Below are positions 2,093 through 14,136 of a DNA stretch of 64,000 bases, piece after piece. The position numbers and the translations under genes were made by a program. Origin of the DNA: Amycolatopsis sp. NBC_01488 (GTDB lineage: Bacteria > Actinomycetota > Actinomycetes > Mycobacteriales > Pseudonocardiaceae); contig NZ_CP109434.1 in assembly GCF_036227105.1 (NCBI RefSeq), forward strand, positions 191,001 through 255,000. Direction: 5' to 3'. The notes under the pieces were generated by a model. It made no database searches, was not told the DNA's origin, and saw only the letters and a program-made list of their open reading frames with translations. The first letter of the stretch is position 1; every line of letters begins with the position of its first letter.

Positions 2093-2679
2093 TGTCCCGG
2101 GTCAAGGAGTTCGACGTCGACGAAGCCTGCGACGCCGCGCTCGCGCTGTTCCGGCGCCAGGGCTACGAGGCGACGTCGGTCAGCGACCTCGTCACGCACC
2201 TCGGCGTCGCGAAGGCGAGCCTGTACGCCACCTTCGGCACGAAGCACGACTTCTACGTCACGGCGTTGAAGCGCTACGCCGAGCGGACCGACACCCGGGT
2301 CATGGCCGAGCTGTCGAAGCCGGGACCGGGCGTGGCCGCAGTGCGGCGGCTCCTCGAGGGGTACGTCGCGGACATCCTCGGCGAAGACGGGCCCGTCGGC
2401 TGCTTCGTCGTCAACGCGGCGATCGAGCTGCTTCCCCGCGACCCGGCGGTCGCCCGGATCGTCGAGCGCAGCTGGGACACCCTCGAAGTCGCCCTGACCA
2501 TGGCGCTCGAACGCGCCAGGACCCAGGACGAACTTCCCGGCGGCAGCGACCCGGCGACGCTCGCCCGGTTCCTGCTCACCGTGCTCCAGGGACTGCGCGT
2601 CCTGGGCAAGGGCACCGACGCGGCCGGCCGGCTGAACGCGGCCGTCTCGCAGGCCATGCGCGTACTCATTCAAGACTGA
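2092..2679 (+). CDS. TetR/AcrR-family regulator
   Basis: A 195-residue TetR-type regulator. Residues about 8-55 form the three-helix DNA-binding domain, with recognition sequence LVTHLGVAKASLYATFGTKHDFY, followed by an all-helical ligand-binding region (TetR_C-like, about 75-190). It ends 22 bases before the SDR gene at 2702 on the same strand, so the two probably form an operon in which the regulator senses a substrate or product of the dehydrogenase. The transcript appears leaderless (promoter at 2055-2084). The ligand cannot be read from sequence. Confidence 0.85.
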   Translation: MSRVKEFDVDEACDAALALFRRQGYEATSVSDLVTHLGVAKASLYATFGTKHDFYVTALKRYAERTDTRVMAELSKPGPGVAAVRRLLEGYVADILGEDGPVGCFVVNAAIELLPRDPAVARIVERSWDTLEVALTMALERARTQDELPGGSDPATLARFLLTVLQGLRVLGKGTDAAGRLNAAVSQAMRVLIQD

Positions 2680-2701
2680 TCGGACCAGAAAGAAGGCAGA
2701 C

Positions 2702-3454
2702 ATGGGGGCACGGTTCGCGAGCAAGGTCGTCCTGGTGACGGGCGGCGGCTCGGGCATCGGGCGGGCGACGGCGCGGGCGTTCGCGGCGGAGGGCGCGACG
2801 GTCGTCGTCGCGGGCCGGGACGAGCGGCGGCTCGCGTCCGCGGTCGAGGAGATCGGCGGCGACGCGAGCGCGGTGACCGTCGACGTGACCGACTCGGCGG
2901 ACGTGGCGCGGATGGTCGAGACGATCGTCTCGCGGCACGGCGGGTTGGACGTCGCGTTCAACAACGCGGGCATCCTCGGATCGCCGGGCCCGGTCGCGGA
3001 CCTCGACGAGGACGACTTCGCCGCGGTGCTGGCCACGAACGTGACCGGCACCTGGCTCTGCCTGAAGCACGAGATCGCGCACATGCGGGCCCACGGCGGC
3101 GGCGCGATCGTCACCATGGCGTCGAACATCGGCGCGCACGGCAGGCTGCCGAACATGGCGGCCTACGCGGCGTCGAAAGCCGCGGTGAGCGCGTTGACCC
3201 GCACGGCGGCGCGCGACCACATCGCCGACGGCGTCCGCATCAACGCGGTCAGCCCGGGGGCGACCGCCACGGACATGTCGCTGCGTCCCGGCGAGACGGA
3301 CGCGGAGCGTGCCACGCGCCTGAAGGACGCGATCCCGCTGGGCCGGGTGGGCGCCACCGCCGAGGTGGCCGCCGCGGTGCTGTGGCTGGCTTCGGACGAA
3401 GCGGCCTTCACCGTGGGGCACGACCTGGTGGTCGACGGCGGCGCGACCGCCTGA
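2702..3454 (+). CDS. SDR-family NAD(P)-dependent oxidoreductase
   Basis: A classical short-chain dehydrogenase of 250 residues. It has the cofactor motif TGGGSGIG (13-20), NNAG (about 88-91), the catalytic serine region TMASNIG, the catalytic Y-x-x-x-K as Y155-AAS-K159, and the PG motif after the active site (SPGATATDM). The acidic residue after beta-2 is replaced by R (AGRDERR), which favours NADP over NAD; this is an inference. The ribosome site AGAAGG lies about 6 bases before the ATG. It is a probable operon partner of the TetR gene upstream and converges on the minigene array. Substrate unknown. Confidence 0.88.
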   Translation: MGARFASKVVLVTGGGSGIGRATARAFAAEGATVVVAGRDERRLASAVEEIGGDASAVTVDVTDSADVARMVETIVSRHGGLDVAFNNAGILGSPGPVADLDEDDFAAVLATNVTGTWLCLKHEIAHMRAHGGGAIVTMASNIGAHGRLPNMAAYAASKAAVSALTRTAARDHIADGVRINAVSPGATATDMSLRPGETDAERATRLKDAIPLGRVGATAEVAAAVLWLASDEAAFTVGHDLVVDGGATA

Positions 3455-3487
3455 GCGGCCCACCCGGACCCGCGGGTACTGGGGTCG

Positions 3488-3504
3488 GCCGGAGCTGGTC
3501 CGGC
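3488..3504. terminator. GC hairpin between SDR and minigene array
   Basis: GCCGGA (3488-3493), a 5-base loop and TCCGGC (3499-3504) form a perfect 6-bp stem just past the SDR stop and just past the last minigene read on the minus strand. It could end either transcript. No T-run follows, as is usual in high-GC genomes. Confidence 0.35.
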
Positions 3505-3510
3505 GGGAGT

Positions 3511-3531
3511 TCACGACTCACGGTTGCGCAT
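3511..3531 (-). CDS. MRNRES minigene, unit 1 (distal)
   Basis: Codes M-R-N-R-E-S-stop with an ATG start. It differs from the other units by CGT for the second Arg and uses TCG for Ser. AGGAGAGGGG sits 9 bases upstream. It is the last unit in the direction of transcription, followed by the hairpin at 3488-3504. Confidence 0.55.
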   Translation of the reverse strand: MRNRES

Positions 3532-3579
3532 GGTGACGTTCCCCTCTCCTACTGGGACGGACTCGGGTGCTCGGCAGGG

Positions 3580-3600
3580 TCAGGACTCGCGGTTGCGCAC
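3580..3600 (-). CDS. MRNRES minigene, unit 2
   Basis: Codes M-R-N-R-E-S-stop with a GTG start and TCC for Ser. GAGAGGGG lies 7 bases upstream on the minus strand. Confidence 0.55.
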   Translation of the reverse strand: MRNRES

Positions 3601-3642
3601 GGCGCATCCCCTCTCGGGCGTCCAGGCAGGGTTGGCGGCGAT

Positions 3643-3663
3643 TCACGACTCGCGATTGCGCAC
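3643..3663 (-). CDS. MRNRES minigene, unit 3
   Basis: Codes M-R-N-R-E-S-stop with a GTG start, AAT for Asn and TCG for Ser. GAGAGGAG lies about 7 bases upstream. Its codon choices match unit 6. Confidence 0.55.
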   Translation of the reverse strand: MRNRES

Positions 3664-3706
3664 GGGCCTTCTCCTCTCGCGGCGTTCCGGCAGGGCTGGC
3701 GGCGGC

Positions 3707-3727
3707 TCAGGACTCGCGGTTACGCAC
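3707..3727 (-). CDS. MRNRES minigene, unit 4
   Basis: Codes M-R-N-R-E-S-stop with a GTG start and CGT for the first Arg. GAGAGGAG lies 6 bases upstream. The 21 bases are identical to unit 5. Confidence 0.55.
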   Translation of the reverse strand: MRNRES

Positions 3728-3766
3728 AGGGCACTCCTCTCGCACGTTGCGGCGGGACATCGGACC

Positions 3767-3787
3767 TCAGGACTCGCGGTTACGCAC
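3767..3787 (-). CDS. MRNRES minigene, unit 5
   Basis: Codes M-R-N-R-E-S-stop, identical to unit 4 in the coding part but with different flanks. GGAAGGAGA lies 6 bases upstream. Confidence 0.55.
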   Translation of the reverse strand: MRNRES

Positions 3788-3828
3788 GACACGTCTCCTT
3801 CCGGCGTGTGATGACGGGTGGCGTGGGC

Positions 3829-3849
3829 TCACGACTCGCGATTGCGCAC
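3829..3849 (-). CDS. MRNRES minigene, unit 6
   Basis: Codes M-R-N-R-E-S-stop with a GTG start, AAT for Asn and TCG for Ser. CGAGGAGG lies 5 bases upstream. Confidence 0.55.
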   Translation of the reverse strand: MRNRES

Positions 3850-3895
3850 GACGACCTCCTCGCTGGTCCGCGGCGAAAAATTCGGACTCGGTGCC

Positions 3896-3916
3896 TCAGG
3901 ACTCGCGGTTGCGCAT
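3896..3916 (-). CDS. MRNRES minigene, unit 7 (proximal)
   Basis: Codes M-R-N-R-E-S-stop with an ATG start. GAAGGGAGG lies 8 bases upstream. It is the first unit in the direction of transcription. About 110 bp separate it from the divergent GGDEF gene, and a promoter should lie there, but I cannot pick out convincing -35 and -10 boxes. Confidence 0.55.
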   Translation of the reverse strand: MRNRES

Positions 3917-4026
3917 GGCGGCGGCCTCCCTTCACTGCTCCGATCGTGTGGTCATCATCGATCGCGGCCGCCCGATGTGATGGGGTGGACGCGGATCGTC
4001 GGATCACCCAGGGGAGTTGCACCGCC

Positions 4027-5337
4027 TTGAGTATGGACGGCGCCCGTCCGGCCGAACCCCGCGTGGGCCGGATCCGTGGGGCGCTGAATCCTGCTCGCTG
4101 GACCCTCTGGCGCCAGCGCGGGTCGCTGATCTCCTACTGCTTCCTCGTCGAGGCCGTGGCGCTCGTGGCCACCGCCTGGACCGCCGCCGTGGTGCCCGTG
4201 CACGAGTGGGACCTGGTCGTCTTCGGCGTCCTCGCCGCCCTCGGCGTGCTGCAGGCGGAACTCGGCCGGCAGATCGAGCGGGTCCGGCGGCTGGTGTCCG
4301 ACACCCCGCACATCAACCTGACGTCGGTCTGGACGTTCGCCGGGGTGCTGCTCCTGCCGCCCGCGCTCGTCACCGCCCTGGTCGCCGTCCTCTACCTGCA
4401 CCTGGCGACGCGCAGCCTCGCGCGGATGAAGCGCGTGCCGCCGTTCCGGACGACGCTGAACGCGACGCTGGTCGTCGTCACCTGCTTCTCGGCCGAGCTG
4501 GTGCTGAACCGTCTCGGCATCCCCGACATGTACGCGGCGCTGACGTCGGGCTGGCGCGGCGTCACCGCCATCGCGCTGGCCGCGGTCGCGTACTTCCTGG
4601 TCGCGGCGATCACGATCCTCCCGGCGCTGACGATCACGAAGCGCACGGTCAAGGCGTTCTTCGGCGGCCTCGGCGACAACCTCCTCGAGGTCGCGACGCT
4701 CTGCCTGGGCCTGCTCACGGCGTTGACGCTGGCGACGCTGCCCGCGCTCGCCGTCGCGATCGTGCCGCCGCTGCTGGTGCTGCACCGGGCGGTGCTGATC
4801 AAGCAGCTGGAGATCGCCGCGACGACCGACGAGAAGACGGGTCTGTTCAACACGACCGGATGGCACTTGCTCGCTTCACGCGAACTGGCGCGTGCCCAGC
4901 GCAGCACGCGCAGCACGTTCGGCGTGCTGATGATCGACCTGGACTACTTCAAGCTGATCAACGACGAACACGGTCACCTGGCGGGCGACACCGTGCTGCG
5001 CGCGGTCGCGGCGACGATCAAGAGCGCGGTGCGCGACTACGACTCGGTCGGCCGGTTCGGCGGCGAGGAGTTCGTCGTCCTGCTGCCGGACATCGGCCCG
5101 GCCGCGGTGCTCACGGTCGCCGAGCGCATCCGGTCGGCGATCGAGAGCCTGCGGGTCGAGTACGAGGACGGCAGCCGCGTCCGCGTCATCGACGCGCTGT
5201 CCGCCTCGATCGGCGTGGCGACCTACCCGGACGGCGGCACGGCCGTCGAACGGCTTCTGCAGGCCGCGGACAAGGCCCTCTACCGAGCCAAGGACGCAGG
5301 CCGCAACCAGGTCGTCGACGGCACCGCGACCGCCTGA
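4027..5337 (+). CDS. Membrane-bound GGDEF diguanylate cyclase
   Basis: A 436-residue protein with an N-terminal half of about six to seven hydrophobic helices (residues about 35-265) and a C-terminal GGDEF domain (about 275-430). The active-site motif is GGEEF at about 345-349, an accepted active variant, and the metal-binding segment MIDLDYFKLINDEHGH is intact. No EAL domain follows, so the expected activity is c-di-GMP synthesis from two GTP at the membrane. I use the TTG at 4027 because AGGGGAG lies 10 bases before it. The ATG at 4033 is the alternative, with a 16-base spacing. The frame stays open further upstream through the minigene array, but that extension is artefactual. No RXXD inhibition site was noted. 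Confidence 0.85.
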   Translation: MSMDGARPAEPRVGRIRGALNPARWTLWRQRGSLISYCFLVEAVALVATAWTAAVVPVHEWDLVVFGVLAALGVLQAELGRQIERVRRLVSDTPHINLTSVWTFAGVLLLPPALVTALVAVLYLHLATRSLARMKRVPPFRTTLNATLVVVTCFSAELVLNRLGIPDMYAALTSGWRGVTAIALAAVAYFLVAAITILPALTITKRTVKAFFGGLGDNLLEVATLCLGLLTALTLATLPALAVAIVPPLLVLHRAVLIKQLEIAATTDEKTGLFNTTGWHLLASRELARAQRSTRSTFGVLMIDLDYFKLINDEHGHLAGDTVLRAVAATIKSAVRDYDSVGRFGGEEFVVLLPDIGPAAVLTVAERIRSAIESLRVEYEDGSRVRVIDALSASIGVATYPDGGTAVERLLQAADKALYRAKDAGRNQVVDGTATA

Positions 5338-5373
5338 CCCATTCCCCCCGCTTCCTGGCCTGGACCAGTCGAC

Positions 5374-5418
5374 TTGCACGATTTGCTCGGCTGAGCTAAA
5401 TTTTGCTCATGCGAGCAA
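5374..5418 (+). promoter_or_regulatory. TetR autoregulatory promoter with twin palindromes
   Basis: TTGCAC (5374-5379), 17 bp, TAAATT (5397-5402), then 6 bases to the ATG at 5409: a good leaderless promoter. Two palindromes GCTC-N4-GAGC overlap it, at 5385-5396 and 5405-5416, exactly 20 bp apart (about two helical turns). The second extends to TTGCTC-N4-GAGCAA. One lies in the spacer and one over the start codon, as expected for a self-repressing TetR protein binding as two dimers. Confidence 0.65.
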
Positions 5419-6011
5419 GAACGTTCACGGAGTCCGGTCGCCGGGCCCAGATCGTGCGGGCGGCGATCGAGGTGATCGCCGAGGCCGGCTACGCCAAGGC
5501 GTCGTTCAGCCGGATCGCGAAGCAGGCGGGCCTGTCCAGCACCGGCATGATCAGCTACCACTTCGCCGGCAAGGACGACCTGCTCGAAGCGGTCGTCACG
5601 GAGATCGAAGTGGTCACCGGGGCGTTCATGCAGCCGCGCATCGACGCCGCCGTCGGGCACGTCGCGCAGCTGCGGGCCTACGTCGAATCGAACGTCGACC
5701 TCGTCGGCGAGTACCCGGCCGAGGTCCGGGCGCTCATCGACCTGGTGAAGAACGCCGGCTCGCAGAGCGCCGCCGTCAACGGGCGGCTCGCGCTGTTCGA
5801 AGAGCACTTCCGCACCGGTCAGGCGGCCGGCGCCTTCGGCTCCTTCGACACCCGGACCGCGGCGCTGTCCTTCACCGCGGGGCTCGACGCCGTCGTCGCC
5901 ACCGCGGCGGCGGCCGTGCCCGAACCCGCCGAGCTCGCGCGCATCGGCCGTGAGCTCGCCGACCTGTACGTGCGGGCGACCGCACCGGAATCCACTGGGG
6001 GATCCACATGA
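5409..6011 (+). CDS. TetR/AcrR-family regulator, first gene of an operon
   Basis: A 200-residue TetR protein with an N-terminal HTH (SFSRIAKQAGLSSTGMISYHFAGKDDLL) and a helical C-terminal ligand domain. I chose the ATG at 5409, not the in-frame TTG at 5403, because the promoter places the transcript start on this ATG. Its stop overlaps the next gene's start by 4 bases (ATGA), so regulator, membrane protein and flavin hydroxylase form one operon likely controlled by this protein through the palindromes at 5385-5416. The hydroxylase's substrate or product is a likely inducer, but this is inference. Confidence 0.87.
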   Translation: MRARTFTESGRRAQIVRAAIEVIAEAGYAKASFSRIAKQAGLSSTGMISYHFAGKDDLLEAVVTEIEVVTGAFMQPRIDAAVGHVAQLRAYVESNVDLVGEYPAEVRALIDLVKNAGSQSAAVNGRLALFEEHFRTGQAAGAFGSFDTRTAALSFTAGLDAVVATAAAAVPEPAELARIGRELADLYVRATAPESTGGST

Positions 6012-13095: not shown

Positions 13096-14136
13096 GTGAA
13101 GCCCGACTGGACCGCGCCCGCGACCCTGCTCGCGGACCCGGAGTGGGTACGCGCCCGCATCGGCGGCGCGGCCAAGCTCTACGGCTGCGCCCGGCCGGAG
13201 GTGCTCGGCACGATCTGGTGGTACTCGCTCTCATCGGTGCTGGTGGCCCCGGCGGTGGAGACCCTGGCCGCGGCGGCCGACGTGGCGTGGGCAGCACCGT
13301 CGACCGCGGAGTCGGACGGCTTCCGGTCGACAGGCCGACCGGCCGTTGGCCACTCGCCCCAACCCTCCCCCGCCGACCGGTCCCCCGAACCTGCACCAGT
13401 CGATCACTCCGACCAACCCGCACCAGCTAGTCGCTCCGCCCGACCCGGCGGCCCCGCCGACCACTCCCCCGGACCCGTGCCAGTCGATCACTCCGACCAA
13501 TCCGCACCAACTAATCGCTCTGCCCGACCCGGCGGCCCCACCGACCATTCCCCCGGACCCGCACCAACCAATCGCACCGCCCAACCCACCCCCACCGACC
13601 ACTCCCCCGGACCCGCAAGTCGCACCGTCCAATCCACCCCTGCCGATCACTCCCCCGGACCCGCGCCAGCCGACCATTCGCCTCGGCTGGCGTTGGCCGA
13701 CCCGTCGCTCGACGCCATGGAGATCGACCTCCTCGCCGACGGGCGGGTCCTCGGCGCCCGGTCCACCCGTCTGCTCTCGGGCGGGCTGCCCGAGCTGGGC
13801 GCCGCGTTCGGCCAGGCGCTCGGGGCCGCCATCGCCACGATCGCCGCTGTCACCGGGGCGCGTGCCCGCGCGCTCGGCGCCATCGCCACCGACTCGATCG
13901 GCAACCGGCTGCTGTGGACGCCCGACCCGGAGCGCGCGATGGCCCTGGCCGAACCGCTGGTGGCCGCGATCGGCCTGGACCTGCCGAAGCCCCGTTTCGT
14001 GCGCGTCGGCCGGACGCCTGCCGTGCGCCGAGCCTCGTGCTGCCTGATCTACGAGGTCGGCAACCCGAAGTGCGTCAGCTGCCCGCGCCAGACGCCGGCC
14101 GAGCGCGAAGCACGCCTGCGCGCCGCTCTGGGCTGA
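13096..14136 (+). CDS. FhuF-like (2Fe-2S) protein with tandem-repeat insertion
   Basis: A 346-residue protein whose C-terminus carries the FhuF-type iron-sulfur signature C315-C316-x9-C326-x2-C329 (within SCCLIYEVGNPKCVSCPRQ). FhuF proteins reduce ferric siderophores at the cytoplasmic membrane. The N-terminal 75 residues and residues about 205-346 look like the ordinary family. Between them lies a low-complexity block of roughly 110-120 residues made of DHSPGPAP/DHSDQ/NRSARPGGP repeats, absent from typical members. The block is an 84-bp tandem repeat in frame (see repeat entry). GTG at 13096 follows GGAAGG by 9 bases. The reductase role is inferred from the Cys motif alone. Confidence 0.7.
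   Translation: MKPDWTAPATLLADPEWVRARIGGAAKLYGCARPEVLGTIWWYSLSSVLVAPAVETLAAAADVAWAAPSTAESDGFRSTGRPAVGHSPQPSPADRSPEPAPVDHSDQPAPASRSARPGGPADHSPGPVPVDHSDQSAPTNRSARPGGPTDHSPGPAPTNRTAQPTPTDHSPGPASRTVQSTPADHSPGPAPADHSPRLALADPSLDAMEIDLLADGRVLGARSTRLLSGGLPELGAAFGQALGAAIATIAAVTGARARALGAIATDSIGNRLLWTPDPERAMALAEPLVAAIGLDLPKPRFVRVGRTPAVRRASCCLIYEVGNPKCVSCPRQTPAEREARLRAALG
13396..13680 (+). repeat. 84-bp in-frame tandem repeat inside FhuF-like gene
   Basis: A unit of exactly 84 bp (28 codons) starts at 13396 and recurs at 13480 with only a few substitutions. A third, shortened unit begins at 13564, and related DHSPGP modules continue to about 13680. The unit length keeps the frame. All three forward frames and parts of the reverse strand stay open here, so overlapping readings in this stretch are composition artefacts. 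Confidence 0.8.

Follow-up and report, generated by a model that had tools for sequence, protein, structure and literature searches.

Seven tandem genes of 21 bp, each encoding the same hexapeptide, were found in a 64,000-nucleotide stretch of DNA from Amycolatopsis sp. NBC_01488 (contig NZ_CP109434.1, positions 191,001 to 255,000; hereafter, the window), where they are divergent from a gene encoding a membrane protein with a GGDEF domain. The comparison with related genomes identified a translated peptide under selection, linked to families of membrane GGDEF proteins and of major facilitator superfamily (MFS) transporters, with a peptide of its own for each clade and paralogue. Judging by the pattern of codon change, the multi-copy peptide is almost certainly translated, and it would, on balance, probably act as a ligand of the adjacent membrane cyclase, with export in many modules.

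A search with RTGCGNAAYCGNGARTCNTRA returned seven matches on the minus strand, between positions 3511 and 3916, against a mean of 0 in 100 dinucleotide shuffles; no further unit of the RTGCGNAAYCGNGARTCNTRA type was found in the 9,499,283-base genome, and a reversed control pattern gave 0 matches. Each 21-bp unit follows the pattern RTG-CGN-AAY-CGN-GAR-TCN-TGA (M-R-N-R-E-S), begins with ATG (copies at 3511 and 3896) or GTG (the remaining five), and is preceded by a purine-rich Shine-Dalgarno (SD) stretch, the starts being spaced by 60–69 bp. The first-pass annotation, made by a model from the letters of the window, had described seven complete minigenes on this strand and at this spacing, with only synonymous differences between copies and a ribosome site for each; the pattern search with shuffles found the genes again, all the listed differences were confirmed, and the purine-rich site was present in 7/7.

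A two-copy pattern matched 26 of the 390 genomes of the family, all within the window's genus, where these array genomes (26 of 80) carry 4–11 copies, the array of one (G052) being split across two contigs. The array carriers with names (L175–L187, L189) are recorded as Amycolatopsis. A looser single-copy pattern matched 33 of the 80 genomes of the genus, six of them without an array, and in the five of these that were inspected (L009, L010, L015, L019 and L028) the matches were stray, with no complete SD-led MRNRES gene. A 27th genome (G063) harbored two copies, ATG CGC AAC CGC GAG AGC TGA and ATG CGC AAC CGT GAA AGC TGA, in which serine is written AGC instead of TCN, a two-base switch that leaves the peptide unchanged.

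For the analysis of selection, nucleotide similarity alone was used to gather units at 27 loci in the 26 genomes, with at most six mismatches allowed and no open reading frame (ORF) required; of the 180 rows collected, two register artefacts were excluded. All of the 178 remaining units read x-R-N-R-E-S-stop, with GTG (117), ATG (60) or GTT (1) as the start codon, and the differences from the majority base in codons 2–6 amounted to 152 at third positions versus 0 at first or second positions. Among the 180 rows, purines occupied 98–100% of the bases 9–14 nt before the start codon, while the spacers varied by 1.3–1.9 bits at most positions and by 0.7–1.4 bits in the few bases just 5′ of the start, in agreement with the earlier description of conserved ribosome sites and diverged spacers. 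The GTT codon replaced the start of one copy in the L020 array (G039), the rest of which was intact; this copy may be undergoing decay, or the codon may stem from an error in sequencing, and thus not every copy is intact in every relative.

The RNA of the window array was less folded than 100 of 100 dinucleotide shuffles (z +3.89), and over 28 arrays the mean z was +1.70, above 0 in 25. Since the opposite strand gave a similar mean (+1.42), the weak folding does not set the coding strand apart, yet it fits a translated, unstructured RNA. The third-position bias, the TCN to AGC switch and the maintenance of the SD amid variable spacers, together with the low RNA structure and the in-frame repeat ORFs found at five other loci (see below), therefore argue for selection on translation of the hexapeptide, and the central proposal of the first-pass annotation, that a hexapeptide is selected for translation in multiple copies, was upheld. 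The search of relatives, the test of synonymous change and the survey of adjacent genes that it had suggested yielded, respectively, the 26 genomes of the family, change at third positions only, and a partner that it had missed, as it had missed the differences in peptide between clades.

This partner is the divergently encoded membrane GGDEF protein, the N-terminal domain of which has about six transmembrane helices, as counted by hand from the helices of its AlphaFold model (mean predicted local distance difference test score, pLDDT, 85.1). Its GGDEF domain retains an intact GG[DE]EF motif, as in diguanylate cyclases, and GGEE was invariant across a 44-row alignment including the window protein. 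All 80 of the 80 genomes of the genus had a match to the membrane half (E ≤ 1e-20), and often more than one; at E ≤ 1e-25, matches were found in 56 of 394 genomes drawn from the class. The matches reach many genera of Pseudonocardiaceae, as well as Kribbella, Fodinicola and several other families. The membrane domain of the window protein had no Pfam match at E 1, which sets it apart from MASE-type sensors; MASE9 matched weakly in 3 of 31 aligned members (best E 2.1e-4), with one further protein below its cut-off. A comparison of its sequence with PDB sequences gave no match up to E 1, and the most probable structural matches of the modelled domain (window 4081–4830) were the S-components of energy-coupling factor transporters ThiT (E 0.67) and RibU (E 1.1), neither significant.

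In the window's genome, 16 GGDEF matches were observed, six of which belong to this membrane family, and five of these six have a peptide gene: MRNRES in seven copies, MCGRDN and MRSRDQ in one copy each, MSNRDF/MANRDF, and a repeat ORF. The sixth (C1:274253) had neither a peptide gene nor an MFS match nearby, and no such minigene was found in the 1.2 kb upstream of the ten other GGDEF genes, a region in which repeat ORFs were not sought.

Features of the window at and around the MRNRES array (positions 5′ to 3′ on the forward strand)
Feature	Position	Strand	Remarks
Minigene 1 (transcribed first)	3896..3916	-	ATG, M-R-N-R-E-S-stop
Minigene 2	3829..3849	-	GTG, M-R-N-R-E-S-stop
Minigene 3	3767..3787	-	GTG, M-R-N-R-E-S-stop
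Minigene 4	3707..3727	-	GTG, M-R-N-R-E-S-stop
Minigene 5	3643..3663	-	GTG, M-R-N-R-E-S-stop
Minigene 6	3580..3600	-	GTG, M-R-N-R-E-S-stop
Minigene 7 (transcribed last)	3511..3531	-	ATG, M-R-N-R-E-S-stop
Shine-Dalgarno of minigene 1	3925..3933	-	GAAGGGAGG; the remaining six minigenes each have their own purine-rich site
Conserved region from the array to the divergent GGDEF gene	3917..4026	.	Alignment of 14 sequences (window and 13 Amycolatopsis loci)
Membrane GGDEF protein, proposed receptor	4027..5337	+	TTG start, GGEEF motif, Pfam PF00990 E 1.6e-43
Short-chain dehydrogenase (Pfam)	2702..3454	+	Convergent with the array; occupies the spot of the MFS transporter in many other modules

The conserved region between the array and the GGDEF gene is presumably the site of the putative promoters, and the short-chain dehydrogenase probably lies outside the peptide system. 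Elsewhere in the window, positions 13368–13668 contain tandem repeats (periods 84, 48 and 27) in which CCCGCACCAACCAATC-like units abound.

Divergent minigenes were also found upstream of homologous membrane GGDEF genes, where they encode clade-specific peptides. Such loci encode MRNRDS, MRNRDT, MSNRDS, MRNRDN and MRDRGN (three copies), and further peptides comprise M[RCG]SRDN (7), M[SAH]NRDN (10 or more), MCGRDN (1), MNGRED (1) and MSRDN, the three 18-bp genes of which (L104) write serine as TCC, AGC and TCT. Tryptophan-containing peptides include MRNWGW (2), MRNRAW (6–9), MRDKIW (1–4), MRDNTWT (4–8), MRDTTWS (up to 12), MRDNNWN (8), M[RS]NKSW (up to 21), MRNHNW (up to 13), MRGHSWG (5), MSKDWN (5) and MLRGVTWI (1), a selection beside which others exist. 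Within arrays of other clades residue 2 is free (R/C/G or T/A/S/H) and those after it hardly change, as though it were the last four or five residues that are read.

From 176 loci, 99 non-redundant ones (<85% identity of the membrane domain) were retained, many with only about 1.5 kb of upstream DNA, and presence tests on them take no account of phylogeny. The GG[DE]EF motif was found by script in 74 of the 99, and in the other 25 the pattern or the available DNA fell short of the motif. A peptide gene was present at 86 loci, unsure at four (L228, L241, L270 and L123) and absent from nine. When at least two SD-led ORFs of 5–8 codons with the same last four residues were required within 2.3 kb, 47 loci passed on the divergent strand, 28 of them with at least three copies, compared with 0 on the strand of the GGDEF gene and 0 in 20 shuffle sets. 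A peptide motif, written after the peptides had been seen, was matched within 700 bp at 73 loci, at one on the other strand, and at 0–3 in five shuffles; the repeat test is independent of this motif.

Some arrays displayed additional features. A 1.1-kb gap on a Pseudonocardia plasmid contains four MRNHNW minigenes, three of which satisfy the SD rule and one of which was recognized by eye; the distributed gene table, which is incomplete by design, lists nothing there. In the arrays of L265 and L258, a four-codon GTG ORF (V-C-D-A and V-S-D-A, respectively) overlaps every minigene, by chance or through translational coupling. In Pseudonocardia L249 (470–5122), two tandem membrane-GGDEF genes lie behind one array, with ~2 kb between the array and the second, an arrangement that L231, L236 and L243 resemble by eye.

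The upstream regions of 11 loci without clear minigenes were read by eye, and all 99 were then scanned by script. At five of the 99, a single SD-led ORF of 31–85 codons with in-frame peptide repeats was found instead: seven PTDWT units on the divergent strand upstream of the GGDEF gene at L255, in the window's own genome (C1:4633000–4637500), six of GNEW at L142, six of STDW at L143, three of PTDW at L144 and four of GSEW at L138. An MFS gene lies upstream at the first four of these, and none was matched at L138 in the available DNA. The minigenes of L258 each contain RDTNW twice, and other script-listed ORFs with repeated triplets were read as shadow frames. One position is thus filled by short multi-copy peptides in two gene forms, which speaks for the peptide, and not the DNA or the RNA, as the product that counts.

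Among the neighbors within 4 kb of the 80 named loci, in which clusters were judged by eye and Pfam was used for the MFS only, an MFS cluster (PF07690, in part PF05977) recurred at 52 loci under 15 genus labels, one of which stands for metagenome-assembled genomes. Besides GGDEF, it was the only cluster in at least three genus labels that was read as a coding gene, the rest being taken for shadow frames. The transporter lies upstream on the GGDEF strand, convergent with the minigenes, at 81 of 157 redundant loci, and the peptide genes sit between the two at the inspected loci having both. Among the 99 non-redundant loci, 51 have peptide gene and MFS, 35 a peptide gene without MFS, none an MFS without peptide gene, nine neither, and four are unsure, one of these with MFS. 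The window's genome carries four MFS genes of this family (E ≤ 1e-20), each adjoining one of the other four modules. Deviating arrangements were also seen: the MFS match is downstream at L224 and upstream in opposite orientation at L212; a plasmid-borne module of Pseudonocardia sp. DSM 110487 (L302, 2023–5046) carries a gene for a prolyl oligopeptidase in the upstream place that the MFS takes in others; and in G059 (L100) the gene after MRNRDS, apparently on the same strand, resembles by eye a LysE-type exporter.

The peptides were also found to co-vary with the proteins beside them. In a Mantel test on 76 loci with 999 permutations, peptide similarity was correlated with the identity of the membrane domain (r 0.55) and, to a lesser degree, with that of the GGDEF domain (0.37); in the partial test the membrane domain retained 0.48, a value that 0 of 999 permutations reached, and the GGDEF domain dropped to -0.21. 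The 11 membrane-domain positions co-varying most with the peptide were 127, 38, 201, 31, 130, 97, 41, 144, 115, 204 and 28, a site-wise signal that probably reflects, in the main, the division of the clades into Trp-ending and Asn/Ser-ending ones.

In the mechanism that we propose, each minigene would yield (f)M-R-N-R-E-S directly, without leader or precursor, and the tandem copies would raise the peptide dose. In many modules, export of the peptide would be the task of the neighboring MFS transporter; in the window's clade, in which the exporter gene is not at the locus, export, if any, would proceed via another transporter. The divergently encoded GGDEF protein would then bind the peptide as a ligand through its membrane domain, and this binding would set its diguanylate cyclase activity, thereby converting the local concentration of peptide into cyclic diguanylate (c-di-GMP). 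Release of the peptide from the cell, its binding to the membrane domain and the direction of its effect on c-di-GMP are the parts of this scheme that we infer. Extending this proposal, we lean slightly towards the view that Actinobacteria harbor a large unannotated family of peptide-to-c-di-GMP channels, composed of tandem 18–27-bp genes, a membrane cyclase and often an MFS exporter. Because the peptide differs between clades and paralogues, one genome could run several private channels; on this family reading, the window's genome would have five (MRNRES, MCGRDN, MRSRDQ, M[SA]NRDF and the PTDWT repeat ORF), and a repeat polyprotein could replace the minigenes. Among the roles that the first-pass annotation had offered, a short signalling peptide fits best; an attenuating leader and tRNA titration fared worse, as discussed below.

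Several observations weigh against the proposed ligand role. Nine of the 99 loci have neither a peptide gene nor an MFS match, the window's own module has the dehydrogenase in the place of the MFS, and 16 peptide-gene loci with at least 2.5 kb of upstream sequence showed no same-strand upstream MFS match. The association between peptide gene and MFS (Fisher p 6e-4) ignores phylogeny, with relatives inherited together and upstream DNA often short, and the Mantel test likewise covers related sequences inherited together. No peptidase or modifying enzyme recurs among the neighbors within 4 kb of the 80 named loci, and the membrane-domain models (mean pLDDT 85) matched no PDB structure at E ≤ 0.001. 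In the arrays of other clades, 196 of 233 units found by similarity, a few of which are register artefacts, keep the peptide after residue 1, with 82 changes at first or second positions versus 93 at third positions, and with 44 non-synonymous versus 85 synonymous codons, the former mostly at residue 2. The first-pass annotation had held that non-synonymous change in homologous arrays would refute it; no such change was seen in MRNRES units, while in other clades residue 2 does vary within arrays and the later residues hold nearly constant. Finally, most of the 11 co-varying positions seem to lie near the cytoplasmic face, in an exploratory analysis with topology assigned by hand, and would therefore suit sensing from inside as well.

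This last point bears on the rival that survives best, which we nevertheless consider unlikely, namely that the unexported peptide is an intracellular modulator, binding its own membrane GGDEF protein from the cytoplasm, or else a different target, with the MFS clearing it or carrying something else. A peptide that stays inside would accord with minigene products too short to hold a signal sequence, with the lack of an MFS at the window locus and with the apparent location of the co-varying positions; however, that topology was assigned by hand from the helices listed for the models, and the linkage to the MFS across many genera points to transport of the product.

There is a low probability that the peptide is the raw material of a small modified product, either a cofactor or a ribosomally synthesized and post-translationally modified peptide (RiPP), with the GGDEF protein and the MFS as its regulator and exporter. 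Multi-copy precursors beside an exporter are common in RiPP loci. Biarylitide genes have a similar size of 18 bp, according to the part of the source consulted (PMC13417212). Besides GGDEF, however, the MFS is the only recurrent coding neighbor within 4 kb of the 80 named loci, and a RiPP locus was rejected for want of any recurrent modifying enzyme near them.

We hold it quite improbable, too, that translation itself is what matters, with ribosomes on the array affecting how the divergent GGDEF gene or the convergent MFS or dehydrogenase gene is transcribed or how stable its transcript is, or with the minigenes titrating tRNA. Minigenes are known as cis regulators and can be toxic through tRNA depletion, as far as the consulted part of the source goes (PMC8708949), but neither variant needs a fixed peptide, five loci have a single repeat ORF instead, and no same-strand gene follows the array in the window. 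A leader peptide or attenuator would be located upstream of the regulated gene and on its strand; it was rejected because the next gene in the window is convergent and thus faces the other way. Titration of tRNA was also rejected, since the last sense codon changes (TCC, TCG, AGC) while its amino acid stays constant. As for the 21-bp element being a protein-binding DNA site or a structured RNA motif that forms a reading frame by chance, binding sites typically take the form of short repeats separated by spacers that vary, but this idea can practically be dismissed, a DNA-binding site being contradicted by units that vary only at third positions and the start codon, and a structured RNA by array RNA that folds worse than its shuffles, though the opposite strand does so too, and by a search of window 2500–5500 against Rfam without a match up to E 0.1.

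If the ligand role is true, a class of membrane cyclases with signals so far unknown would gain its ligands, and peptides would join the small group of signals with a demonstrated direct action on c-di-GMP enzymes. Moreover, a form of peptide gene, in tandem units of 18–27 bp, would be revealed that annotation likely misses. Development and antibiotic production in streptomycetes are both governed by c-di-GMP, according to the consulted parts of two sources (PMC7911125, PMC7026642). Six-residue peptides could then serve as simple chemical switches in antibiotic-producing actinomycetes, and each peptide-cyclase pair is directly testable with synthetic peptide.

Several known systems share parts of this arrangement. 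The RRNPP systems of Firmicutes comprise several peptide-receptor pairs per genome, and their propeptides carry a signal sequence; minigene products here have only 5–8 residues (15 in L258), repeat ORFs left aside. Like the modules described here, RRNPP/Rap-Phr encodes a short linear peptide beside its receptor as an adjacent gene pair, but its peptides derive from propeptides and its receptors are intracellular, according to the consulted part of the source (PMC10075063), whereas here there are tandem genes without precursor and a membrane diguanylate cyclase as partner. No cytosolic tetratricopeptide repeat receptor is linked; the linked gene encodes the membrane GGDEF protein, besides which only the MFS recurs. 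Systems of the Agr type, in which the peptide is a thiolactone, likewise combine a peptide, a polytopic membrane receptor and a dedicated membrane protein at one locus; the modules differ from them in lacking a recurrent AgrB-like processing enzyme among the neighbors within 4 kb and in having GGDEF output instead of a kinase.

Biarylitides have the core motif M-x-Y-x-[H/W], from which the peptides found here differ, and require a cytochrome P450, none of which was seen among the recurrent neighbor clusters read by eye. Their 18-bp bytA genes, equal in size to the MSRDN genes, were called the smallest known genes and missed by annotation; tandem arrays, the feature of the present modules, go unmentioned in the consulted part of that report (PMC13417212, 2026). 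The regulatory minigenes, of which lambda bar is one, exert their effect through tRNA drop-off or in cis on the gene that follows. The LEE4 six-codon ORF and axe-txe resemble the present units in being very small ORFs (two to six codons) led by an SD, and the LEE4 hexapeptide itself was reported as irrelevant in the portion of the source consulted (PMC8708949). PatS and PatX of Nostoc also provide peptides of five or six residues, which control differentiation in a filamentous bacterium, as far as the consulted part of the source goes (PMC7476756); unlike the minigene products, they reside within longer proteins, and their target is the regulator HetR. The BDSF-RpfR system and the AI-2-dCACHE cyclase come close in their logic, a diffusible signal directly controlling a c-di-GMP enzyme, as is proposed here, but neither ligand is a peptide. 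Among the matches listed by a full-text literature search, the scope of which left subscription papers and preprints outside, no description of such a layout was found. The pairing of tandem minigenes with a membrane GGDEF protein is therefore rated as new in kind, and its function as a strong, testable inference.
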